A DNA stretch of 64,000 bases. It comes from Cellulophaga sp. HaHaR_3_176 (GTDB lineage Bacteria; Bacteroidota; Bacteroidia; Flavobacteriales; Flavobacteriaceae). The translations under genes and the position numbers were made by a program. The notes under the pieces are model-generated. The model was not told where the DNA came from. It did not search any database and saw nothing but the letters and a program-made list of their open reading frames with translations. Below, piece by piece: positions 24,714-35,526 of this stretch. The stretch is from the NCBI RefSeq assembly GCF_019021925.1, contig NZ_CP058990.1, positions 1,914,001 through 1,978,000 on the forward strand. Direction: 5' to 3'. Position 1 is the first letter of the stretch. Every line of letters begins with the position of its first letter.

Positions 24714-24744
24714 ATAACCGTAATTGTACGGTTATCCGTACGTT
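24714..24744 (+). repeat. Leader with overlapping hairpins next to first GTT core (attI-like candidate)
   Basis: AACCGTA attg TACGGTT (24716-24733) forms one hairpin, and TACGG ttat CCGTA (24727-24740) forms an overlapping alternative one, ending at the GTT core at 24742. It lacks the 190 bp length and outer arms of the spacers further down the array. It is the site that an attI or a decayed first attC would occupy. The assignment is an inference from position only. Confidence 0.35.
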
Positions 24745-24770
24745 GTAAGCAATTTAAAAAATCATTCGAG

Positions 24771-25193
24771 GTGAAATTAAAAAATCTGACAATAGCTCCA
24801 AGAACTGGAAATAAAAGTATCGAATATTTAGAGAATATCTTAGAGGATAAATTAACTGATAATTTCAAAATATTTATGAAAAAGTATGCTGGACTTTCAG
24901 TAATTGAGGATTTTTATGAAGACAAGAACGGAAATCAATGGGAATTACAAACCTTTGATGGAATAATGTCGATGGCTCAATTAACTAAAGAGTTTAAGGA
25001 AAATGGTTGGGGTTCAAAAATGCCTTTTGCATATGACCCCGGAGGTTGGCATTATTGTATAAGTTATGAAGTAGAAAGTTATCATAAAATAATAGTTAAT
25101 CGTTGGAATGACCATCTACCAGAAGAACAATTCCTGATTATAGCAGATTCATTCGAGGAATTTATAAACGGACTTCACGCAAAACACAAGTAA
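24771..25193 (+). CDS. SMI1/KNR4 (SUKH) family protein, cassette 1
   Basis: A 140 aa protein with a SMI1/KNR4-type fold pattern: IEYLENILEDKLTDNFKIFM at the start, FDGIMSM near 63, a central PFAYDPGGWHYCISYE segment, and a C-terminal IADSFEEFINGLH. SUKH proteins are often immunity proteins against contact-dependent toxins. No toxin gene is next to it. The frame opens with GTG at 24771. The gene is enclosed by GTTGTAAGCA at 24742 and its complement TGCTTACAAC at 25198, the cassette boundaries. Confidence 0.8.
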   Translation: MKLKNLTIAPRTGNKSIEYLENILEDKLTDNFKIFMKKYAGLSVIEDFYEDKNGNQWELQTFDGIMSMAQLTKEFKENGWGSKMPFAYDPGGWHYCISYEVESYHKIIVNRWNDHLPEEQFLIIADSFEEFINGLHAKHK

Positions 25194-25200
25194 AAACTGC

Positions 25201-25395
25201 TTACAACAAAACCTATAAACAATACGGGTTTTCGGCTTAATCGAAAGATTTGCGTATTTTTATGAAGTCCGCAAAATCTTTTGGATTTTGCTTTAAACAA
25301 GAAAAGAAAAAATAAAACAAAAAGATTTTGCTATGTGCTTGGTGGAAAGTAAACGCTAGTTTGCTCCCGTACTGTTCATAGCCAAATCGTTAGCC
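25201..25395 (+). repeat. attC-like site 1
   Basis: It starts with TTACAACAAAACC and ends with AAATCGTTAGCC. The arms CCTATAAACAATACGGG and CCCGTACTGTTCATAGCC are imperfect complements with unpaired bases. The length of about 195 bp is in the range of long attC sites. The first bases complement the left end of cassette 1, and the last bases belong to cassette 2. Confidence 0.72.
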
Positions 25396-25419
25396 ACAAT
25401 ATTGAAAAAACCCTAATAA

Positions 25420-26364
25420 ATGATTAAGTATTTTAATATTGATGGAATCTCAACTAATGAAGAAACTGACAAAACTGTTGTTACAGAATGGAATAATCAA
25501 TTTTCCATTAAGAATGATGATATCTCATCTGATATGGATTTTAAGTTAATAAATTTAACTTTCAAATCAGCTGATATTCTGTTTGGAAGTGTTCAAAATA
25601 TGTACAACATTTTGATGACTAAATCGACAATGACTTCATATGCTGGAATCAATGCTGAAATAAAAATATCAAAAGACGAATTTGAAAAGTGGCTGAATGT
25701 GAATAAGTCAACTGAAACACATAAATTTCTATATTATTATGATTTTCAAAGTTTAGTCGGCTCTTTGCAAAACTTAATATCTGAGTCCAGATTTCTACTA
25801 TGTGATTTTTACAAGACCTTAAATGAGAATTCATTTATGATAATCGAAAACCCAAAAAATGTTGAAGGACTTATGTTCGCATCAGGAAGACTTGTAACAA
25901 GTATATTCGCAAAAATAAATCACCTATTCATAAATTTAAATAGCCAATTAGATTTTATTACTAAGATTGCATATGAACTTGAGAATATTCCAAAAGATTT
26001 TGATGTTTATCCAAAAATGAAATCGAATAAAATTTTGTTTGGAGATGCGAAAAAAATTAAGAATAGTAAGTTAAAAAACACCATTTTTGACAAAACAGAT
26101 AACACTAAATTGATAATCAGTTTAAGGAATGAAATAATTCATAACGCATCGTTTGAAAATATCCAAAAAGTTTATCAACTGTTTTCGAATAACATTATGA
26201 CCGAAAAATTTATATTAATACCTGATAATACAAATGGTAATTTTGATTCATATAAAAATAGAAATCGGTTTTTCAATAATGACATTAAATTAAACGAACT
26301 TTTACCAAACATAGTCACAGAATTTTGGAAAGAAATGGAAACAACAATAATCAAACTGGCATAA
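25420..26364 (+). CDS. Unknown protein with possible HEPN-like motif, cassette 2
   Basis: A 314 aa, mostly alpha-helical, soluble protein with no signal peptide. No family was recognised with confidence. Residues 235-243 read LRNEIIHNA, an R-x4-H pattern (Arg236, His241) at the start of a predicted helix, as in HEPN RNases and HEPN-like abortive-infection proteins. The sequence before it (about 150-190) is also helical. The gene is flanked by GTTAGCCACAATATT (25389) and AATACTGTGGCTAAC (26364), a 15-bp complement with one mismatch. A defence role is only a hypothesis. Confidence 0.6.
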   Translation: MIKYFNIDGISTNEETDKTVVTEWNNQFSIKNDDISSDMDFKLINLTFKSADILFGSVQNMYNILMTKSTMTSYAGINAEIKISKDEFEKWLNVNKSTETHKFLYYYDFQSLVGSLQNLISESRFLLCDFYKTLNENSFMIIENPKNVEGLMFASGRLVTSIFAKINHLFINLNSQLDFITKIAYELENIPKDFDVYPKMKSNKILFGDAKKIKNSKLKNTIFDKTDNTKLIISLRNEIIHNASFENIQKVYQLFSNNIMTEKFILIPDNTNGNFDSYKNRNRFFNNDIKLNELLPNIVTEFWKEMETTIIKLA

Positions 26365-26371
26365 ATACTGT

Positions 26372-26580
26372 GGCTAACAATGTATATAAAAAATAGCGCG
26401 AGCATTTGCAAACACAGAGGTTCGGGCAATTTTTCGAGGTCGCCAAATTTTTAAATTTGGCTATTTGAGAAAAGAAAGATAAATAGAAAAATTTAAAAAT
26501 TCGGCTTGAGTTCAACCGAATGGTTAGCGCACTTTTTCAGCGCTACTTTTCATATACTCGACCGTTATATACCATTACCA
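26372..26580 (+). repeat. attC-like site 2
   Basis: A spacer of about 209 bp. The arm GTATATAAAAAATAGCGC near 26381 pairs with GCGCTACTTTTCATATAC near 26550 with two mismatches. It begins GGCTAACAAT and ends CGACCGTTATAT, so bases are unpaired near the core on one side, as in attC sites. Inside is a further AT-rich palindrome around AAATTTTTAAATTT. Confidence 0.75.
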
Positions 26581-26587
26581 CTCAACA

Positions 26588-27157
26588 ATGAAAAATCTAA
26601 TTAATTACATACAATCAAGAATTGCCTTAACTCAAAATGATATTGATTTAATCAAAAAGTATTTCGTTTCTGAACAAATCCCAGCTCAAATTAATCTTTT
26701 AGAACCAGGAAAAGTTGAGAGGTATATTTATTTCTTAGATACTGGAATTGTAAAGGGATATCAAAATACTGACGGAAAAATTGTCGTACAGCACCTTGTA
26801 GCGGAACAAGATTTTTTTACATCATTAGATAGTTTTATGACAGAAACACCTTCATTAGATTATTATGAAACTATCACAGAGTCTAGAGTTCTAAAAATAT
26901 CTAAACCTGATTTTGATATTTTACAAAAGGAAACGACATTTTGGGCAATATTTATTAAAGAAGTAACCAACGAACATTTAAGTTGTAAATTAGAACGTGT
27001 TAAAGATTTTCAAATTTTAACAGCAAAAGAACGTTATCTAAAATTTGTAAATCAGAATCCAAAATTAGCTTTAAATGTATCTATTGACAATATCGCTTCT
27101 TTTTTAGGAATGGAACCTCAATCTTTAAGTCGTATCAGAAAACAAATCGTTTTCTAA
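26588..27157 (+). CDS. Crp/Fnr family regulator, first gene of cassette 3
   Basis: A 189 aa protein with a cyclic-nucleotide-binding beta-barrel at about 25-115 (LLEPGKVERYIYFLDTGIVK, VAEQDFFTSLDSF) and a C-terminal helix-turn-helix (VSIDNIASFLGMEPQSLSRI). This form is common in Bacteroidota. No cAMP-type phosphate cassette (RTA) is obvious, so the ligand may differ or be absent. It lies 61 bp before the reductase gene in the same cassette and could control it. Confidence 0.85.
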   Translation: MKNLINYIQSRIALTQNDIDLIKKYFVSEQIPAQINLLEPGKVERYIYFLDTGIVKGYQNTDGKIVVQHLVAEQDFFTSLDSFMTETPSLDYYETITESRVLKISKPDFDILQKETTFWAIFIKEVTNEHLSCKLERVKDFQILTAKERYLKFVNQNPKLALNVSIDNIASFLGMEPQSLSRIRKQIVF

Positions 27158-27218
27158 CAAATGTTATTTCTAACCGCTTAAAAGGTGTCGAAATTTGCTC
27201 AAACAAAATTTAAGAATT

Positions 27219-28232
27219 ATGAGCAACGAAATTTCATTAGTAACTGGCGGAAATGGACATTTAGGAAACAACCTAATTAGGCTTTTACTTTCCGATAACC
27301 AAAAAGTAAGAACAACTGTAAGAAATATTAATAATACTGAACCGTTTAAAGGGTTAGACTGTGAAGTTGTTCAAGCTGATATTACCGACAAAGAATCCCT
27401 AAAAAAAGCTTTTCAAGGAGTTACAAACTTATATGCAGTGGCTGCAAATTTCAGTATGTGGGCCAAAAACCCCAAAACTGAAATTTATGATAATAATATG
27501 CAAGGAACTCAAAATGTGTTTGACATTGCTAAAGAATGTGGCGTCAAAAATATCGTTTATGTAAGTTCAGTAGCTAGTTTGGATTTTACAAAATTGCCTG
27601 CTAATGTGGACAATGGATATAACAAAGACAGACGAAACTGGTATTATAATTCTAAAAATGATTCTGATAAACTCGCATTAGAATTAGGAAAAAAGTATGG
27701 TATTAGAACTGTTCTTGTTTTACCCTCTGCTATGATTGGGTCTAAAGCTTATAAGTTAAGTTATTCTAACAAGCTTGTATTACAAGTTTTAAATGGTGAA
27801 ATACCCGTAGACACTAATGTAACTTTAAATTGGGTAGACGTAAAAGATGTAGCGTTAGGAACCTATAACGCAATGACAAAAGGTAAAGACAACGAAAGGT
27901 ATATTTTATCTAACGAAAAACATACTACGTTACAAGAAACGGTAAAAATAGCAGCTGATTTATACCCTGAACTAAAGCTGAAAACACCTAAAAAAGTATC
28001 AAAATGTTTATTGTACTCTGTTGCAGGTTTAATGGAATTTAGTAGTAAACTGACAGGTAACGAACCTCTGTTACAGAGACATTACTTGGATATGTTTTAT
28101 GGCTTAAAACAAGATTATGATATAAGTAAATCAAGACGAGAATTAGGTTATAATCCTAAACCATCAAAACACGCTTTAGAAAATGCTTTAAAATATTTGA
28201 AAACCGATTGGAAAAAAGAAAACGGTATATAA
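27219..28232 (+). CDS. NAD-dependent epimerase/dehydratase (dihydroflavonol reductase-like), second gene of cassette 3
   Basis: A 337 aa extended short-chain dehydrogenase. The nucleotide loop TGGNGHLGNNLIRLL is near residues 9-23, with VYVSSVASLDF near 113 and a YxxxK-type active site in YYNSKNDSDKLALELG near 143. The substrate cannot be told. An upstream TTG at 27195 is in frame, but ATG 27219 begins right at the domain and is chosen. The TAA stop (28230-28232) is inside the cassette end GGTATATAAC. Confidence 0.85.
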   Translation: MSNEISLVTGGNGHLGNNLIRLLLSDNQKVRTTVRNINNTEPFKGLDCEVVQADITDKESLKKAFQGVTNLYAVAANFSMWAKNPKTEIYDNNMQGTQNVFDIAKECGVKNIVYVSSVASLDFTKLPANVDNGYNKDRRNWYYNSKNDSDKLALELGKKYGIRTVLVLPSAMIGSKAYKLSYSNKLVLQVLNGEIPVDTNVTLNWVDVKDVALGTYNAMTKGKDNERYILSNEKHTTLQETVKIAADLYPELKLKTPKKVSKCLLYSVAGLMEFSSKLTGNEPLLQRHYLDMFYGLKQDYDISKSRRELGYNPKPSKHALENALKYLKTDWKKENGI

Positions 28233-28422
28233 CAATGTATAAAAAACATAGGGCATTTGCGCTAAACCGAAAGGTCTGTCCATATTAATAAAGTCCGCTG
28301 AATATAAAATTTGGCATTTATAGTAGAAAAGATAAAAGCAAAATATTTATATTTAGCTAAGTAACAAACCGAAACAATAGTGCTTATCACCTGCCCTACG
28401 TTTCTTATACTTAACGTTAGCC
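28227..28422 (+). repeat. attC-like site 3
   Basis: It begins with ATATAACAATG and ends with TTAACGTTAGCC, about 196 bp. The arms GTATAAAAAACATAGGGC and GCCCTACGTTTCTTATAC are near-complements (two mismatches). Its right half, from about 28345, is nearly the same as in attC-like sites 4, 6 and 8. The internal frame reading MLITCPTFLILNV is made by this site and is not part of a gene. Confidence 0.78.
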
Positions 28423-28439
28423 CACATTTAAAAAAAACT

Positions 28440-29282
28440 ATGAGCTTAAATACAGATTTAGTAAAAGCAACGAAAGAAGGAGATTTAAAAAAAGTGTCTG
28501 AATTGATTGAATCTGGTGCGAACTTAAATACAACTGTAGGAGATAGTGATAAACGAAATTTACTTCATCACGCTTCCCAAAAAGGACATCCAAAACTGAT
28601 TGAATTTCTTATTGAAAAAGGAATTGATATTAATAGTTTAGATTATAGAAAAAGAACGCCATTATATTTAGCTTGCTATGATTACAAAGTTAATTCAGCC
28701 AAAACACTTGTTTCAAAAGGAGCTATAATAAATCTAAGTGGCGAATATAATCCACTCGATATGGCAAGTTCTAATTCATTTTACGGAACTGAAATAGTTG
28801 AATTATTACTTGAAAACAATGCTGATGTAAATCTTATTTGCAGAGGAACAAGTGTAACACCTTTAATGGGTGCTTTACACCAAAAGAAAACTGATGCCCT
28901 TAAATTACTATTAAATGCAGGAGCGAATACAAATCATATTGACGCTAATGGAGAATCACCATTAGGAAGAATTTCAGTTTTTGAATTTCCTGAACAAATA
29001 AATTTATTGTTAGATTACAAAGCCAAAATAAACTTTCAAGATAGAAAAGGAAATTCTGCTTTACATTTAGCAACAGAAAGAAAAAACAAAAAAGTAATCG
29101 AAATTCTAATTAAAAGAGGAATTAAAGTCAATCTGAAAAATAAGAATGGAGAAACAGCAAAAGATATTGCCCAAAAAAACAGTCCTGAAATATTCTCACT
29201 AATTTGCGAATTAATAAATGTTAATCCAAAAGAGAATAATCAAAGTGGAATATTCTCTAAAATCGGAAAATTGTGGAGATAA
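28440..29282 (+). CDS. Ankyrin repeat protein, cassette 4
   Basis: A 280 aa protein made of about eight ankyrin repeats, for example LLHHASQKGHPKLIEFLIEK, TPLYLACYDYKVNSAKTLV and SALHLATERKNKKVIEILIK, with a 20-residue tail. No signal peptide. The start is ATG 28440; the frame also opens at 28380, but those 20 codons are attC sequence that recurs before another cassette. Boundaries are GTTAGCCCAC at 28416 and GTGGGCTAAC at 29286, which are exact complements. Ankyrin proteins bind other proteins; the partner is unknown. Confidence 0.88.
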   Translation: MSLNTDLVKATKEGDLKKVSELIESGANLNTTVGDSDKRNLLHHASQKGHPKLIEFLIEKGIDINSLDYRKRTPLYLACYDYKVNSAKTLVSKGAIINLSGEYNPLDMASSNSFYGTEIVELLLENNADVNLICRGTSVTPLMGALHQKKTDALKLLLNAGANTNHIDANGESPLGRISVFEFPEQINLLLDYKAKINFQDRKGNSALHLATERKNKKVIEILIKRGIKVNLKNKNGETAKDIAQKNSPEIFSLICELINVNPKENNQSGIFSKIGKLWR

Positions 29283-29288
29283 AACGTG

Positions 29289-29485
29289 GGCTAACAATGG
29301 CTATAATTAATACGGGGTTTGGTACTTAATCCAAAGTTTTGGACTTTTAACCAAGTCCGCCAAATCTTTTTGATTTGGCTTTATAAATGAGAAGATAAAA
29401 CAAAATATTTATATTTAGCTAAGTAATAAACCGAAACGATAGTGCTTATCACCTGCCCTACGATTTCTTATACTTAACGTTGTAG
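29289..29485 (+). repeat. attC-like site 4 (mosaic)
   Basis: It begins with GGCTAACAATGG and ends with TTAACGTTGTAG, about 197 bp. The left half (TATAATTAATACGGGG, then TTTTGGACTTTTAACC) differs from sites 3 and 8, while the right half from AAATATTTATATTTAGC onward is nearly the same. The outer arms pair less well than in other sites, which suggests a mosaic of two attC types. Confidence 0.68.
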
Positions 29486-29525
29486 GTAATGCAAACAAAA
29501 TCATACTATAAAAAAAAATTCGATA

Positions 29526-30527
29526 ATGAAAAGAAATTTATTAGTCTTCGTTTTAACTCTTTCCTCAAACATAATATTTTCTCAAACCGACAAGTGTAAG
29601 CCAATTTTGCAAAAGGATTTTATAGACAAAATAAAAGACTACAAGGCAGCTGATTTAGTTCCATACAATGTTGTAAATGATAGTTGGCAAGAAAAATGGG
29701 GGTTGATGGACAAAACAACGAAAAAAAAATTGACTGAACCTTTAATGAATTATGCTTCAACATTCAATCCGAATATTTCTTTTTTCTATGAGGAATGCGA
29801 TGTTAAAATTAATAATAATTATGAATTAAATGCAAAAGATTTGATGGTTACTGTAATAGAAGGTGATGACTCAGTTGACCAAAAAATACAAGTCTTAGAT
29901 TCTATAAATGGATATAAAGGTTTCAAAGTCGATGATAATGGTAATTTGATTGCCTATTCAAAAGCCTACTTTAGGGACAATTGGCATAGTTGGAATATCT
30001 CAAAACCTTTCCTATATAAAAATAATTATTATGCAATAGTGCAAAACAAAGAGGGCAACAAAACAATTATCAATACTGAAGGTGAAATCAAAAAGGGTTT
30101 TGTTTATAAGTCACTCAGATATACTGATTATCAGCATAAGGGAGAAAATTTACTTTATGCAGAGGACTTTAAGGGAAAAAAAGGATTCATCACTTTATCC
30201 GGTCATAAACTTCATTACGGTAAATTATTAAAAAGTCCATTTTACAGTAATGAACTTTTTGGTTACAGCATACAGCACGATGGAATTAGAGGAGCTGGAA
30301 CATATCAAGATTCGATTTCAAAATCTGGAATTTTAGACTTATCTACAATGAAGTGGCTGATAAAACCTAAAAAAGGACTAAAACTAATCGATATGGTATA
30401 TACTTCTGAAAGTGTTGCTAAAACTGATTATACGAATCGCAAAAATGTCAATATCTATTTTGTAGTTTTAGAAGATAAGTTTAGATATTTAATTGATGAA
30501 GAAGGCAACAAGTATATTGCGAAATAA
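29526..30527 (+). CDS. Exported protein of unknown function, cassette 5
   Basis: A 333 aa protein with a clear signal peptide (KRNLLVFVLTLSSNIIFSQ). The mature part includes several short segments such as NKEGNKTIINTEGEIKKGFV and a final YLIDEEGNKYIA that resemble WG-type beta repeats, but the family was not recognised. Its cassette ends are GTTGTAGGTAATGC at 29479 and GCACTACCTACAAC at 30532, complementary at 13 of 14 positions. It is probably periplasmic or outer-surface. Confidence 0.75.
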   Translation: MKRNLLVFVLTLSSNIIFSQTDKCKPILQKDFIDKIKDYKAADLVPYNVVNDSWQEKWGLMDKTTKKKLTEPLMNYASTFNPNISFFYEECDVKINNNYELNAKDLMVTVIEGDDSVDQKIQVLDSINGYKGFKVDDNGNLIAYSKAYFRDNWHSWNISKPFLYKNNYYAIVQNKEGNKTIINTEGEIKKGFVYKSLRYTDYQHKGENLLYAEDFKGKKGFITLSGHKLHYGKLLKSPFYSNELFGYSIQHDGIRGAGTYQDSISKSGILDLSTMKWLIKPKKGLKLIDMVYTSESVAKTDYTNRKNVNIYFVVLEDKFRYLIDEEGNKYIAK

Positions 30528-30538
30528 AAAAGCACTAC

Positions 30539-30734
30539 CTACAACAAAGCCTAAACGTAATGCGGACTTTTGGGTAAAACCGAAAGGTCTGCGTATATTT
30601 ATAAAGTCGTTAAATCTTATGGATTTAGCTTTGGACAAAAAAAGAAAAAGCGAAACCAAAAGCTTTAGCTTCGTGCGCAGACGGAAACGTAAGGTTTCCT
30701 TACTACCGCACTACGCTTAGCCGAACCGTTGGTG
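30539..30734 (+). repeat. attC-like site 5 (type 2)
   Basis: About 196 bp. GCCTAAACGTAATGCGG near 30548 pairs with CCGCACTACGCTTAGCC near 30707 with few mismatches. The inner parts GGTCTGCG and CGCAGAC also pair. The same sequence type recurs in site 7. An open frame of 75 codons inside it (30493-30720) is an artefact of this repeat. Confidence 0.78.
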
Positions 30735-30766
30735 GCAATTTACACGAAAATCGAACAAAGAAAAAA

Positions 30767-31831
30767 ATGGCAAAAAAAAGAAAAACTCTTCCAAAAACTT
30801 TTGAGGCATTAATTGAAGCAAAAGATATAAAAAGCCTCAAAAAAATGTTTGATACGTGCGAAGTTGATGCAAGAGGTGGTTACGGAAAATCAACAGCTCT
30901 GAGTACTTATTTTATTCCCAATGAACTTGTACGCTGGTTAGTGGAAAAAGGAGCAGATATTGATGCTGTTGATATTTATGGATGTACTGCACTTCATAGA
31001 CACGCAAGTTTTCATAGTGGAGATATAAGCATCCTTTTAGAACTTGGAGCAAATGTAAATGCGAAGAACAACAATGGCGAGACACCACTTCATTATGCCG
31101 CTGGAGGTGGTTTTAAAGTAGATGATGTAAAAAGGTTAATTGAAAATGGAGCAAAAACAGAAATTGTAAATAAAAATGGACAAACGCCATTTGATTATGC
31201 TCTGAAACGTGCGAATAACATCAACCTTATTGAATTGGTCGAAGTTTCAAAGGTCTTTCTTAAAATAAACAGTGAAGTAACACAAGTTATGAAAGATTCG
31301 ATTCATCGATTAGGAGAAAATTTTGAATTTCATAGAGAGAATTTTAATAAAGAATCTCTAGCTGAAACAGACGAAGCTCTGAGTGCACTTTATGAAATGT
31401 TTAATGTTATCCCCATTAAAAAACGAATTATGCACGATGGTGTTTCTACTATTTGTGTACAAGATAGCACATGGGAAAAACAATATGAGGAATTATGGGA
31501 TTTTTTAATTCCTTCTAGCGGTAGTGCAAAAACCATACAAGGAGAAGTGGTTCGTATTTCAGGAAAAGTTAGGGATGAAATTTATAGAAATGGTGGCGGA
31601 AATTGGAATACAGACTTTAAAAAAATGTTAGATGCCTTTTTTAGCTATCTATCCTTAAATAATTCGCTAAATAATGAAGACCTTGAGAAAATAGGTTTTC
31701 TTATAAAAGATATTCGAAAAAACGGAGACGCAGAAACTGAGGAACTTAATTACTTATGTGAATTGGCAACAAAATGGGTGTTACTTAATCCAAACCCAAT
31801 TATTTTAGATAAGCCAAATTATAAAAGATAG
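30767..31831 (+). CDS. Ankyrin repeat protein with C-terminal helical domain, cassette 6
   Basis: A 354 aa protein. Residues about 40-150 form three to four ankyrin repeats (TALHRHASFHSGDISILLEL, TPLHYAAGGGFKVDDVKRLI). The remaining 200 residues are a separate domain with ETDEALSALYEMFNVIP and a later DEIYRNGGGNWNTDFKKML, not recognised. No signal peptide. The left end GTTGGTGG (30728) and right end CCACCAAC (31848) are exact complements. It differs from the cassette 4 ankyrin protein apart from the repeats. Confidence 0.85.
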   Translation: MAKKRKTLPKTFEALIEAKDIKSLKKMFDTCEVDARGGYGKSTALSTYFIPNELVRWLVEKGADIDAVDIYGCTALHRHASFHSGDISILLELGANVNAKNNNGETPLHYAAGGGFKVDDVKRLIENGAKTEIVNKNGQTPFDYALKRANNINLIELVEVSKVFLKINSEVTQVMKDSIHRLGENFEFHRENFNKESLAETDEALSALYEMFNVIPIKKRIMHDGVSTICVQDSTWEKQYEELWDFLIPSSGSAKTIQGEVVRISGKVRDEIYRNGGGNWNTDFKKMLDAFFSYLSLNNSLNNEDLEKIGFLIKDIRKNGDAETEELNYLCELATKWVLLNPNPIILDKPNYKR

Positions 31832-31848
31832 AATTGAAGAAAAACTAC

Positions 31849-31857
31849 CACCAACAA
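31849..31857 (+). repeat. attC-like site 6, left fragment
   Basis: CACCAACAA is the expected left end of the attC after cassette 6. The sequence after it stops looking like an attC because the IS110-family element begins here. The rest of the site resumes near 33075. Confidence 0.6.
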
Positions 31858-31888
31858 AGAACTGTGGTAAAAAACAAGTGATTTTTAC

Positions 31889-32860
31889 TTAATTTCTAAC
31901 AAGTACACTTCTATATCCATCATTGTATATCAACCCTGATTTAGCTATGGCAAAAGCTTGTTTTAGCAGCTTATTACATACTGCAATTAGGGCTAGTTTT
32001 TTACTGTTTCCTTTGGCTACTATTCGGTCATAAATGGCCTTACATGCTTTGTTGTATTTACAAGCATTAAAACTGCACATAAATAGTAAATTCCTAAGCT
32101 TTTGATTGCCTATTTTACTTATTCGTGCTCGACCATTTACACTGCTTCCACTCTGTCTTATTATCGGCGTTAAGCCAGCATAACTACATAGCTCACTTCC
32201 TCTTGTAAAACGATCAAATCCATCCGTTAAAACAACTAACATAATCGCTGTCTTATCTCCTATTCCGGGTATACTTTTTAAACGTGTTAAAATATCCTGA
32301 TGCACTTGCTTTACTAAATCTAATAATTTGTCTTCTATTGTCTTTATTTCTTGCTGTACTTGTTTTAAAATACGTCTTATAGAACTAACAACAGCTTTAC
32401 TTGGATTACCCAATACAGATTCTCCGTGTAATTTATTTTTAAGCATCGTGCTCTGTTTTGTCAGCCTTGATAGTAGCCTTGTCATTTGCAGGCATTCTAT
32501 TTGATGTTTAGAATTTCCTTGCCATAACTTTAAATCTACCTGTTCTGCATAAGAACAAATCAGTTTTGAATCACTTTTATCGGTCTTTATCTTAGATAAC
32601 TTCATCTGTATAAAACGCTTTACTGATAAAGGATTTTCTACCGATACTTTTACTCCTGATTCAAGTAAATGATAAGCCAATTGATAATGATAGTATCCTG
32701 TAGCTTCCATTACACAATGGCTCTCTTTACTTAAGAGTTTTACAAACTTATTAAAACCAGTTACAGTATTTTTAAACTGATAGTATTTACCATCGGAATC
32801 TGTAACATCAAATACTAAATGACTAATGTCTATCCCAAAATATTTAATATCTTTATTCAT
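31889..32860 (-). CDS. IS110-family transposase (DEDD recombinase)
   Basis: A 323 aa protein. The N-terminal DEDD RuvC-like domain begins with YFGIDISHLVFDV (first acidic residue), followed by VMEATGYYHYQLA and KTDKSDSKLICSYAEQ. The C-terminal Transposase_20 domain has LKSIPGIGDKTAIMLVVLTD, then LCSYAGLTPIIRQSGSS and ISKIGNQKLRNLLFMCS with the conserved serine region. The frame also opens at a TTG at 32887; ATG 32860 precedes the domain directly. The gene looks intact, so the element may be active. Confidence 0.92.
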   Translation of the reverse strand: MNKDIKYFGIDISHLVFDVTDSDGKYYQFKNTVTGFNKFVKLLSKESHCVMEATGYYHYQLAYHLLESGVKVSVENPLSVKRFIQMKLSKIKTDKSDSKLICSYAEQVDLKLWQGNSKHQIECLQMTRLLSRLTKQSTMLKNKLHGESVLGNPSKAVVSSIRRILKQVQQEIKTIEDKLLDLVKQVHQDILTRLKSIPGIGDKTAIMLVVLTDGFDRFTRGSELCSYAGLTPIIRQSGSSVNGRARISKIGNQKLRNLLFMCSFNACKYNKACKAIYDRIVAKGNSKKLALIAVCNKLLKQAFAIAKSGLIYNDGYRSVLVRN

Positions 32861-33074
32861 AAGAAAATGTTTTTTTTGAAAGGACAAACTACGCGAGTTT
32901 CAACAACTTAAAATCGAGGTCAAAGCCTCATAGAACTGTACGAAATCTGTGTAGAAAAGAGAGGGGATTTTCAATGTTGACGAGATCTGTAGTCTCTACG
33001 TATAAAATAATCTTATTCCTCTCTTTTGTTCTTTCTGTTTATCTTTCTAATTTAATGAATTACAAACTTAAGAG
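32861..33074 (-). ncRNA. Candidate bridge-RNA region of the IS110 element
   Basis: The non-coding 5' flank of the transposase. IS110-group elements are known to encode a bridge RNA upstream of the recombinase gene. Here AAAAGAGAGG (32955-32964) pairs exactly with CCTCTCTTTT (33018-33027) around an inner loop with GTAG tct CTAC, and a second small hairpin GAGG/CCTC lies at 32916-32929. The RNA itself and its guide loops are inferred. Confidence 0.5.
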
Positions 33075-33260
33075 GTATATAGTTCATAGCTAATAAGTTG
33101 CTTAATCGGAAGGTCTGTGAATATTAACAAAGTCCGCCAAATATAAAATTTGGCATTTTCAATAAAAAAGATAAAAGCAAAATATTATATTTGGCTTAGC
33201 ACCAATCCGAAACGTAATTGCTTATCACCTGCCCTACGCTTCTTATACTAAACGTTATCT
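33075..33260 (+). repeat. attC-like site 6, right fragment (type 1)
   Basis: From GTATATAGTTCATAGC to TATACTAAACGTTATC. It aligns with sites 3 and 8 through the conserved AAGTCCGCCAAATATAAAATTTGG and TGCTTATCACCTGCCCTACG stretches. The IS is inserted between the AACAA start (31849-31857) and this arm. Confidence 0.7.
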
Positions 33261-33265
33261 ACAAT

Positions 33266-33784
33266 ATGAAAAAACTAATACCCAGAGAAGAAAGAAATGA
33301 AAAATTGATTAGCTGTGGTATCCCAGAACAATTTTTATCTAGTATTGGAAACATTGATGAATTAGATTTCATGGTTGAAGACCCTAAAGGAGCGTATTTC
33401 TATTTCCCTACAATGGATTATAAAATATTTTCTGGGTTTGAGGTAACTCCCATTTTCAATTGCGGAGAAGAATTCTATGCCTTATTTGAGAAAAATGACA
33501 TTAGAAAAATTGTTAGATTCGAACTTGAAAATGATGAAATATACTCGGATTATGGATTAAATTGGAATCTACTCCTTATGGATATTTTATGGCGTTATTT
33601 TGACTTAGCTTTAGAAGAAGACGATAGTATGTCTTTGTTTTGTTCGGTTGGAAAAAGGTTAGGTTTTTTATATTCTGAAAAACTATATCAATGTCTTAAT
33701 ATTCCTAGTGATGAAATTTCAATTAAACTCGAGAATAAAAAAAAATGGAAAATTGAAGTTGCTGAAAAAATAAAAATACTGTAG
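33266..33784 (+). CDS. Small cytoplasmic protein, possibly SUKH-like, cassette 7
   Basis: A 172 aa soluble protein rich in aromatic and acidic residues. IPEQFLSSIGNIDELDFM, YFYFPTMDYKIFSGFEVTPI and FEKNDIRKIVRFELENDEI give a beta-rich pattern somewhat like SMI1/KNR4 immunity proteins, but this is a weak match. The start is ATG 33266; an in-frame extension to 33218 is attC sequence. The TAG stop overlaps the cassette end TGTAGATAAC (33780-33789), the complement of GTTATCTACA (33254). The ATG is only 9 bp after the core GTT. Confidence 0.65.
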   Translation: MKKLIPREERNEKLISCGIPEQFLSSIGNIDELDFMVEDPKGAYFYFPTMDYKIFSGFEVTPIFNCGEEFYALFEKNDIRKIVRFELENDEIYSDYGLNWNLLLMDILWRYFDLALEEDDSMSLFCSVGKRLGFLYSEKLYQCLNIPSDEISIKLENKKKWKIEVAEKIKIL

Positions 33785-33978
33785 ATAACAAAACCTAAAT
33801 GTAATGCGGACTTTAGGGCTAAATCGAAAGGTCTGTGTATATTTATAATGTCGCTAAATCTTATGGAATTAGCTTTGTACAAGAAAAAATAAAACTAAAC
33901 AATAAGCTTTAGCTTCGTGCGCAGACGGAAACGAAAAATTTCCTTGCCTCCGCACTACGCTTAGCTCAAGCGTTAGCG
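33783..33978 (+). repeat. attC-like site 7 (type 2)
   Basis: About 196 bp, with the same type of sequence as site 5: left arm CCTAAATGTAATGCGGAC, right arm CCGCACTACGCTTAGC and the inner GCTTCGTGCGCAGACGGAAACG. It begins AGATAACAAAA and ends CAAGCGTTAGCG. Confidence 0.78.
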
Positions 33979-33983
33979 AACAT

Positions 33984-34838
33984 ATGAATAAATTTTTTGC
34001 ATACATATTAATTTTAGGAACAATTGTTCAGGTATGTGGCCAAAGCTCAGACATTCTGATTTGGAAAAAAGATACTCTAAACCTTTATTCAAATCCCTTA
34101 GAAAAAAGAACTGATTGGCAAAAAATAAATCAATCCATTTCAAAACAGATTGAAGAACATTTACTTGCTACAAGTAACGATTCAATAATTGAAATTTCAT
34201 CTTTCCTTCAAAACTATAAGACAGAATGGAGAATTGAGAAAGGGAATTTGTATCTGAACAAAATTACAAGCTTTGAAAATTTAGAATTAAGTATCGATTT
34301 AATAACAAAATCTAAGAACACAGAACTTCCGATATTTGCCGAATGGCTTACTGACTCATTGATTATTTTTAAGGGTAATTGTATAGTCTGTGAATCTAAC
34401 CATTTAAAAAACACTTCAATTTATCCGAACGAATTGATACTCGAATTTAGAAAAGGAACATTTGTAAATAAGTCGAAATATAAAAATCGAGTTTTAAAAA
34501 AATCTAAACTATCAGATTTAGACCCAAATCAATATCTCGAATATATTTATAGTAAAATCAACTGGAGTCAATTAGATAAAATGGATAAGAATATCCAAGC
34601 CTTTGTAAGCATTGAACCTGATAAAAATGGTAAACTAAAAAAAATTGATTGGGAATACACTTATCTGATTTCTGATAACAACATAATAACAAATAAACAG
34701 AACAGATTTTTAAAAGAAGCTGTCCGAATTGCTAAATACATTCCCGACTGGACAGTGATTTTAAGGCACGAAAAGATTATGAACCAAGACTTATCGATTA
34801 TATTTAGCCCAGAAATAAAAGAAAAATACGCTCGCTAA
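33984..34838 (+). CDS. Exported protein of unknown function, cassette 8
   Basis: A 284 aa protein with a signal peptide ending near Gly-Gln (FAYILILGTIVQVCGQ). The mature part has no recognised domain. The C-terminal segment about 200-280 (IQAFVSIEPDKNGKLKKIDW, then FLKEAVRIAKYIPDW) recalls the end of TonB-like proteins, but the match is loose. Cassette ends are GTTAGCGA at 33972 and TCGCTAAC at 34832, and the TAA stop lies inside the right end. Confidence 0.7.
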   Translation: MNKFFAYILILGTIVQVCGQSSDILIWKKDTLNLYSNPLEKRTDWQKINQSISKQIEEHLLATSNDSIIEISSFLQNYKTEWRIEKGNLYLNKITSFENLELSIDLITKSKNTELPIFAEWLTDSLIIFKGNCIVCESNHLKNTSIYPNELILEFRKGTFVNKSKYKNRVLKKSKLSDLDPNQYLEYIYSKINWSQLDKMDKNIQAFVSIEPDKNGKLKKIDWEYTYLISDNNIITNKQNRFLKEAVRIAKYIPDWTVILRHEKIMNQDLSIIFSPEIKEKYAR

Positions 34839-35030
34839 CACTGTGTATATAACATAGCTAATTAAGTGCTAAACCGAAAGTTCTGTGCATATTAACAAAG
34901 TCCGCTAAATATAAAATTTGGCGTTTATAATAAAAAAGATAAAAGCAAAATATTTATATTTAGCTAAGTAATAAACCGAAACGATAGTGCTTATCACCTG
35001 CCCTACGATTTTTTATACTTAACGTTACCT
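34833..35030 (+). repeat. attC-like site 8 (type 1)
   Basis: About 198 bp. It begins CGCTAACACTGTG (AACAC rather than AACAA) and ends TTAACGTTACCT. The right half TATTTAGCTAAGTAATAAACCG to GCCCTACG is almost the same as in sites 3 and 4. Confidence 0.76.
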
Positions 35031-35063
35031 GCAAGCTCAAAAAAAGAAAATTCCACAAAATGA

Positions 35064-35526
35064 ATGATTGAAAAGAAAAAAATATTAACAATATCTGGTA
35101 GTATTAGCCGAAATTCAGCAAACCTTTACACCCTAAAAATAATAGCCGAATTAGGACAATCTAGTTCTGATTTAAATATACTAGATGATTTAAACGAACT
35201 GCCACATTTTAAAACTAAACTGACCGAAAAAAAATGTACCTGAAAAAATTGTGAAATTTCGTAATGGAATTGCCAATGCGGACGGAATTATAATATGTAC
35301 ACTTCTATATTCACCATCATATAACAACCCTGATTTAGCTTTTAAGACAGAAGAAATGCCTGGGAGGTTAGAATTTCTATACTCTTAACTATGATTCTTG
35401 CTAGCTTAAAAAGCATACAAGAACGCTTAGAAAATCCTTTTTATTCAAATTGATGAAGATGATATTAAGTTTAACGTTGACAAGTTTATAGAACGTTTAA
35501 ACTACAAACTCGCCTACAACAACTAA
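35064..35526 (+). pseudogene. NADPH-dependent FMN reductase pseudogene, cassette 9
   Basis: The frame from ATG 35064 encodes ILTISGSISRNSANL, a typical flavodoxin-fold FMN-reductase start, and stops at TGA 35231. One extra A in the A8 run at 35227-35234 is enough to explain this; in the next frame the sequence continues as VPEKIVKFRNGIANADGIII. At 35297-35340 the reading is broken by a segment that matches the end of the IS110 element. After it, QERLENPF and, after another frameshift, DKFIERLNYKLAYNN remain. Its left end is GTTACCTGCAAG at 35024; no matching right end was found. Confidence 0.7.
35297..35340. mobile_element. IS110 end remnant
   Basis: A 44-bp segment reads GTACACTTCTATAT and then CAACCCTGATTTAGCT with a short gap, matching 31903-31946 at the 3' end of the IS110 transposase in the same orientation. 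It is probably a scar of a former IS insertion within the FMN reductase gene. Confidence 0.6.

Follow-up and report, generated by a model that had tools for sequence, protein, structure and literature searches.

An integron-like cassette array in a Cellulophaga chromosome, probably served from a distance by a recombinase outside the IntI clade

Integrons are the closest described relatives of the locus reported here. Their codirectional gene cassettes start at a GTT, and each carries an attC site that is complete only in the circular form of the cassette and consists of an R box, an unpaired spacer, an L box and a long terminal part. The attI site adjoins the integrase gene, and insertion sequence (IS) elements of the IS110/IS1111 type occur within attC. 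Clusters of attC sites lacking an integron integrase (CALINs) resemble the present array in having no integrase within the cluster. During CTXphi integration the phage borrows the host XerCD recombinases. That case offers a further parallel, since a passage of PMC4792948 describes a Xer-like enzyme, without the IntI-specific insert I2, acting on a folded single-stranded site. For Bacteroidetes proper, a section of the IntegronFinder 2.0 paper mentions only In0 elements from earlier work and a single complete integron, that of Salinibacter ruber (PMC9024848). IntegronFinder detected none in a Tenacibaculum genome, according to an extract of PMC10013915, and part of PMC9892861 reports attC sites in a Polaribacter phage, one of them active with IntI1. 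We analysed a window of 64,000 nt, bases 1914001–1978000 of the single-contig 3.80 Mb genome of Cellulophaga sp. HaHaR_3_176, which contains a cassette array that is integron-like in the features visible in its sequence and fails strict membership on its integrase. Searches of open-licence PubMed Central full text, a scope that leaves out most subscription papers and bioRxiv, showed no description of this system among the papers listed.

The array spans positions 24742–35023 of the window and comprises eight codirectional plus-strand cassettes with attC-like sites, starting at the GTT triplets 24742, 25389, 26564, 28416, 29479, 30728, 33254 and 33972; the next GTT lies at 35024. Its head is an attI-like sequence on the plus strand (24714–24744), in which the 22-nt palindrome ATAACCGTAATTGTACGGTTAT is followed by 6 nt and then by the GTT crossover at 24742. 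The same stretch occurs directly 3′ of the stop codon of an integrase gene (C1:1863972–1865096) located 73.6 kb upstream of the window attI on the same chromosome. This gene is intact, encodes 375 amino acids and runs in the direction of the cassettes, with its own array, carrying the same spacers, downstream. We read the locus, with a probability of about 0.87, as one array of a multi-locus integron-like system whose non-IntI integrase would act in trans through copies of attI. An earlier examination of these nucleotides, the sequence-only reading, had described an attC array of at least eight plus-strand cassettes and considered its integrase either lost or elsewhere in the genome. The cassettes number exactly eight and are bounded by attC-like sites as it proposed, and the integrase is indeed elsewhere, 74 kb upstream beside the same attI, rather than lost. 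The picture of an array with no attI or integrase of its own was thus incomplete, and the labels 'CALIN' and, strictly, 'integron' are inapplicable because the integrase is not an IntI. Spacer lengths of 195–210 bp hold only if the ends are counted; from AAC to GTT the seven uninterrupted window sites measure 181–185 nt. A covariance model of the spacers (R1), trained on 37 sites of the Cellulophaga genome including seven in the window, matches the window at eight places (E ≤ 0.001) and nowhere else in it at that threshold. The seven training members match by construction. Rfam gave 0 matches in the window at gathering scores.

In total, 15 attI-like heads, copies or variants of one another, were found in the Cellulophaga genome, and downstream of every one the same strand carries attC-like sites. 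A pattern search allowing up to 3 mismatches recovered 12 heads, while L020, L288 and L289 were added by scripts, L288 requiring up to 6 mismatches (L and G numbers are our labels for loci and genomes). By eye, five trans heads (L014, L015, L017, L019 and L025) have in common an extra T-rich stretch ahead of attI that was not seen at the integrase head and is possibly a promoter. The association of integrase and attI extends to many genera. Among 40 loci with integrases of the Cellulophaga type (type A; identity of about 53% or more, with some of the loci truncated at contig ends omitted), a script located a palindrome after the stop codon with a GTT 3–6 nt beyond in 33, and the mean palindrome arm score over all 40 was 9.7, against 5.2 for shuffled sequence. 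The sequence of the palindrome varies between genera, both arms changing together. Copies away from an integrase recur in G202, where two of three attI copies lie beside integrases and one lies away at 1587200, and in G093, where one of three adjoins an integrase and two are on C2. In both genomes the copies with no adjoining integrase head R1-positive arrays, and the same kind of attI search gave 0 hits with the pattern reversed as a control and 0 in the two further genomes covered. A tandem pair of palindromes lies downstream of the integrase in L105, L106 and L108, as if attI had been duplicated. In L151, L153 and L162 the assembly contigs stop at or near the attI crossover, as is expected of a repeated or population-variable site.

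A second set of integrases, type B, heads arrays of the same attC family, and several of these genes are divergent from their cassettes, as intI is. Loci with this divergent arrangement and a different attI are L118, L119, L121, L122, L123, L124 and L126. A search for palindromic attI in ten type B loci found one only in L137. When attI was sought by complementarity instead, a GTT matching the end of the first cassette at 9–10 of 10 bases, 54–142 nt from the gene, was found in seven of the eight divergent type B loci tried, the second-best places scoring 6–9. The same approach recovered an attI in L137 and found no attI for L120, L125, L127 and the Persicobacter plasmid L261 (best 5/10).

The ends of the cassettes suggest that each is a unit of recombination. 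In 40 Cellulophaga cassettes each start was scored against the end of the same cassette, and the mean complementarity is 5.88 of 7 bases, with 32 cassettes scoring 6–7, whereas shuffled pairings give 2.77 (standard deviation 0.22; maximum of 10,000 shuffles 3.83) and the start of the next cassette matches the same end at only 2.43 (37 sites). This set still includes a few mis-parsed rows. For 106 cassettes from 20 other loci the mean is 5.84 of 7 against 2.49 when shuffled (maximum of 5,000 shuffles 2.99), and 84 of them score 6–7. Such complementarity, which spans 0.4–5.7 kb, is what would be left over had each cassette at one time been a closed circle bearing a single, complete attC. Comparisons of related cassettes place the boundaries at the same base. 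A 588-nt cassette present twice in one array of G202 is 100% identical through attC, with identity ending at the GTT and unrelated flanks upstream (0.49–0.52). A cassette common to G202 (two copies) and G181 shares 92–94% identity over about 806 nt among different neighbours; over the 150 nt upstream the sequences belong to different members of the attC family (0.63–0.76), and further out similarity is 0.50–0.54. A relative of window cassette 7 heads the array at 3.24 Mb, with 81% identity over 324 nt from the GTT on. Judged from these sequences, cassette boundaries change exactly at GTT.

The attC-like sites appear to have R and L boxes and a GTT crossover and to be completed in the circular cassette. 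In an alignment (A1) of 37 full-length sites, drawn from 58 nhmmer matches in fetched stretches, both sides have changed in one or more sequences at 13 of the 21 consensus pairs, which is consistent with covarying stems. At two positions of the L stem an A on the left faces a C on the right, in 34 of 37 and 37 of 37 Cellulophaga sites. Twenty loci of other genomes supplied a further 115 sites, of which 108 and 114 hold A·C at these two positions, while neighbouring stem pairs exchange CG, AT and GC freely; that alignment was fitted to the model, yet both A·C positions are unpaired in the model. An A·C on the top strand is a G·T wobble on the bottom strand. The 115 matches occupy a single strand within each locus and fall into two length classes, of about 200 nt (67/115) and about 137 nt (48/115). 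For folding, 25 of 40 sites were picked for clean ends and one, in which GTT was not found, was dropped. In circular form, the bottom strand is predicted to be the more stable in 23 of 24 sites (mean −34.1 versus −31.1 kcal/mol; Wilcoxon p = 1.1e-4), and the predicted outer stem has 10 bp or more without interruption in 21 of 24 bottom strands as against 3 of 24 top strands, with a few single-base bulges further in on the bottom strand. The asymmetry would be expected to run the other way if the sites were conserved as a plus-strand RNA.

The integrase is a tyrosine recombinase related to XerA and IntI that lies outside the IntI clade and has no IntI-specific insert. A search of the Cellulophaga genome with the integron-integrase model returned seven sub-cutoff matches, of which the best two are parts of the 375-residue gene and others include two 299-residue Xer-type proteins. 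The genome search for intI suggested by the sequence-only reading led to an integrase gene, one that scores 202.3 bits against the TIGR02249 (IntI) cut-off of 265. The protein is also under the XerC and XerD cut-offs and passes NF040815 (XerA) at 227.3 bits against 220. Ten other array-linked integrases all stay under the TIGR02249 cut-off; against NF040815, L124 and L128 are over and eight are under. The distance from the RI motif to HxxR is 91–92 residues in types A and B where measured, 96–100 in Xer proteins and 133 in IntI (from the 16 of 21 IntI rows with a clean motif match). In a 66-row tree, IntI forms one clade (21 rows, 100/100) with types A and B outside it, and nine Xer rows form a separate clade (100/100). 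Type A is one group (12 rows, 99/96) and type B is not; A, B and other enzymes, nearly all labelled Bacteroidota, group together at 98/93. Only one integrase of this type was found in the Cellulophaga genome (E ≤ 1e-40).

An extra N-terminal part of about 75–100 residues (within residues 1–100), conserved in type A, distinguishes the Cellulophaga integrase from XerA, as does its tie to attI and cassette arrays. About 75 of these residues are predicted to adopt a small α/β fold, which could stand in for I2. The predicted structure, whose template modelling score (pTM) of only 0.48 confines its use to the N-terminal part and the resemblance of the core, has XerA (5hxy) and IntI4 (2a3v) as its best structural matches. 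No structural match listed covers the N-terminal part, an outcome that has no bearing on its novelty. According to part of PMC8138268, the IntI-type insertion is not fully conserved in an 'integron-like' subgroup, so relatives of the Cellulophaga integrase may already sit there. The system is probably run by a recombinase without the domain thought essential for integrons.

In the mechanism we propose, the integrase would recombine the GTT of attI-like palindromes with attC-like sites, so that cassettes would be excised as circles and inserted in trans at any of the 15 attI copies found, including that of the window. The attC would comprise an R stem of about 10–15 bp whose sequence is specific to its cassette, then a short unpaired stretch, an L stem of about 16 bp and the long terminal part, and its folded single bottom strand would serve as substrate, with G·T wobbles replacing extrahelical bases. 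The crossover, a six-base spacer and an L-type arm would be equally spaced in attI and in the folded attC. A single integrase would serve all arrays. Compared with those of integrons, the enzyme is outside the IntI clade and shorter between its motifs, the attI is palindromic and repeated away from the integrase, the predicted folds show G·T wobbles and no consistent extrahelical bases, and type A integrases point toward their cassettes. A CALIN differs from the present array in that the latter has its own attI head and an integrase with a matching attI elsewhere in the chromosome. CTXphi, in contrast to the dedicated integrase here, relies on host enzymes, and here gene cassettes are involved.

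The sites are widespread in the family, which named relatives indicate to be Flavobacteriaceae. R1 gave at least 66 matches in the Cellulophaga genome at E ≤ 0.01 (150 of 5163 first-look candidates scored), matches in 218 of 249 family genomes (E ≤ 1e-4, nine candidates scored per genome) and in 93 of 396 genomes of the class, own family included (E ≤ 1e-6, six candidates each). All 17 chosen complete or near-complete genomes carry 10–78 matches. Other phyla, sampled as 49 loci totalling 788 kb and unmatched in base composition, gave 0 matches at E ≤ 0.01. Integrase matches, including relatives of about 40% identity and lower, occur in 172 of 249 family genomes at E ≤ 1e-40. Named carriers of type A include Arenibacter, Psychroflexus, Zunongwangia, Flavivirga, Aquimarina, Winogradskyella and Seonamhaeicola. 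When 41 of 80 named-carrier loci were scanned with R1, six loci yielded 17 sites. Every one of these sites lies on the strand of the integrase and comes from Bacteroidota; in L160 one site lies upstream of the integrase. On a Persicobacter plasmid (L261, CP012862.1) there is an integrase of 43% identity, and 5 kb downstream of it the same strand carries an attC-like match; the cassette system may ride plasmids.

GTT/AAC ends, hairpins and codirectional cassettes, all as in integrons, could mean that an ordinary IntI integron elsewhere left the cassettes behind or was the route by which they were recruited. We consider this very unlikely. IntI over its cut-off is present in 85 of 296 genomes of the phylum, a result that lends the idea some plausibility and also validates the search, and it is present in 0 of 249 family genomes (E ≤ 1e-60, a threshold at which the control is silent); G378 is the only such genome listed within the same class in the phylum search. 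Moreover, the linkage of integrase, attI and attC-like sites seen here involves no IntI. The strict CALIN reading was rejected on the TIGR02249 score, the family count and the tree placement. The sequence-only reading had itself named ordinary dispersed repeats among the things that would undo it. Transcript-level hairpins or terminators operating without site-specific recombination would be examples, and sites that fold well between codirectional genes would suit them. This account is the least credible of all. Pairing of own start with own end, seen in the 40 Cellulophaga and 106 other cassettes, spans whole genes, arrays have attI heads, and the A·C pairs become G·T on the bottom DNA strand only and not in a plus-strand transcript. 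Hairpins are predicted, and the exchange of neighbours exactly at GTT, which had been anticipated between strains, shows up when positions of one genome, or different genomes, are compared. Start–end complementarity together with identity ending at GTT led us to reject this candidate.

Two alternatives that keep the cassettes deserve more attention, both of them doubtful in our view. One has the same system operate on double-stranded attI and attC through a canonical Xer-type pathway. The enzyme lacks the insert by which IntI recognises a folded attC, and double-stranded recombination could in theory serve integrons, as a portion of PMC4792948 discusses; the strand-asymmetric A·C is nevertheless kept in 92–100% of sites, and recognition hardly proceeds via the R box because its sequence is private to each cassette. 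The other takes the trans arrays for fossils that once had integrases of their own and lost them, leaving only the array beside the integrase active. In its favour, several sites show erosion or are interrupted by an IS element. Against it, the homology between trans heads and the integrase head begins, by eye, about 11 nt before the palindrome, tblastn recovers no integrase remnant in 12 fetched stretches around other heads, and four heads are identical over a 28-nt core. The reading of one trans-acting, non-IntI system has observations of its own to face. Its support comprises sequence comparisons and predicted folds, the species being represented by one strain, and type B recombinases on the same attC family leave the assignment of enzyme to site ambiguous. 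An integrase match (E ≤ 1e-40) is missing from 77 of the 249 genomes of the family and an attC match from 31, so attC-like sites also occur where no close integrase is found. R1 sites are absent from the remaining named type A loci among the 41 scanned, such as L150 from Arenibacter; some of these loci are cut by contig ends, and their sites may be out of reach or differently shaped. Type A locus L107 has no attI by eye, L153 is cut by a contig end, and L089, L094, L099, L114 and L160 fail the automatic attI criterion, showing imperfect palindromes by eye. Scores are below 6 of 7 in eight of the 40 Cellulophaga cassettes and below 5 of 7 in 20 of the 106 others, which we read as missed or eroded sites or mis-parses. 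One of 24 folded sites favours the top strand, the energies being predictions. IS110 and IS3 elements may choose attC-like sites by nucleotide sequence alone.

The boldest reading, to which we give somewhat more than even confidence, is a second kind of integron found throughout Bacteroidia, in which the recombinase never had the I2 of IntI, the folded bottom strand is recognised through conserved G·T wobbles and one integrase distributes cassettes to many attI sites across a chromosome. If so, it would be a parallel invention of the integron or a living intermediate toward it. An excerpt of PMC4792948 poses the origin of integrons as a chicken-and-egg question, the selection of I2 before attC sites and the reverse; this becomes testable because attC-like sites occur here without an I2 domain. 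A layout of one integrase and many attI copies, if true, would change the reading of flavobacterial gene flow.

Insertion sequences mark the same sites. Eight near-identical IS3-family copies were found in the Cellulophaga genome (E ≤ 1e-100; C1 at 313.9, 645.1, 1481.1, 1653.5, 1836.0, 1867.8, 2487.9 and 3241.1 kb), all at attC-like sites in array orientation. Each begins at a distance of exactly 14 nt from the G of the GTT or, in one case, from the A of an ATT. This element seems to home on cassette starts. The three IS110-family copies found in this genome (window, L022 and L008; one split between two frames) all lie within attC-like sites, and in each the attC remainder beside the element starts at model position 19. 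The window copy sits inside attC-like site 6, with its transposase gene on the minus strand (31889–32887; Pfam Transposase_20 and DEDD_Tnp_IS110). IS1111-type elements that target attC are known, and part of PMC11187229 places IS110/IS1111-type elements at a fixed attC position; here the targets are flavobacterial sites and an IS3-family element has the same habit. After the last attC of the window, a 53-nt piece at 35288–35340 is 85% like the IS110 end and lies beside an apparent broken cassette.

All cassettes and sites of the window lie on the plus strand, and own-end complementarity is 7/7 except where stated. Cassette 1 (24742–25388) encodes a SUKH/SMI1-KNR4 protein (24771–25193; Pfam SUKH_6) and ends in attC-like site 1 (25196–25396; R1 187.7 bits, training member, as are all sites but site 6). 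Cassette 2 (25389–26563) has an open reading frame (ORF; 25420–26364) with no Pfam match, and site 2 at 26367–26571 (154.2 bits). Cassette 3 (26564–28415) holds two genes, a correction to the sequence-only reading, for a cyclic nucleotide (cNMP)-binding protein (26588–27157) and an NAD-dependent epimerase (27195–28232), followed by site 3 (28222–28423; 183.2 bits). Cassette 4 (28416–29478) encodes an ankyrin-repeat protein (28440–29282; site 4, 29284–29486, 156.9 bits), and cassette 5 (29479–30727) has an ORF without a Pfam match (29526–30527; site 5, 30534–30735, 183.4 bits). Cassette 6 (30728–33253) encodes another ankyrin-repeat protein (30767–31831); its attC is split by the IS110 element into a left part at about 31844–31876 and a right part at 33066–33261 (144.3 bits, non-training), and it was left out of the 40-cassette complementarity set. 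Cassette 7 (33254–33971) carries an ORF at 33266–33784 and site 7 at 33778–33979 (177.5 bits). Cassette 8 (33972–35023; complementarity 6/7) carries an ORF without a Pfam match (33984–34838) and site 8 at 34828–35031 (169.9 bits). When eight proteins, seven of them from window cassettes, were submitted to PADLOC, the ankyrin proteins of cassettes 4 and 6 matched the candidate model PDC-M72A.

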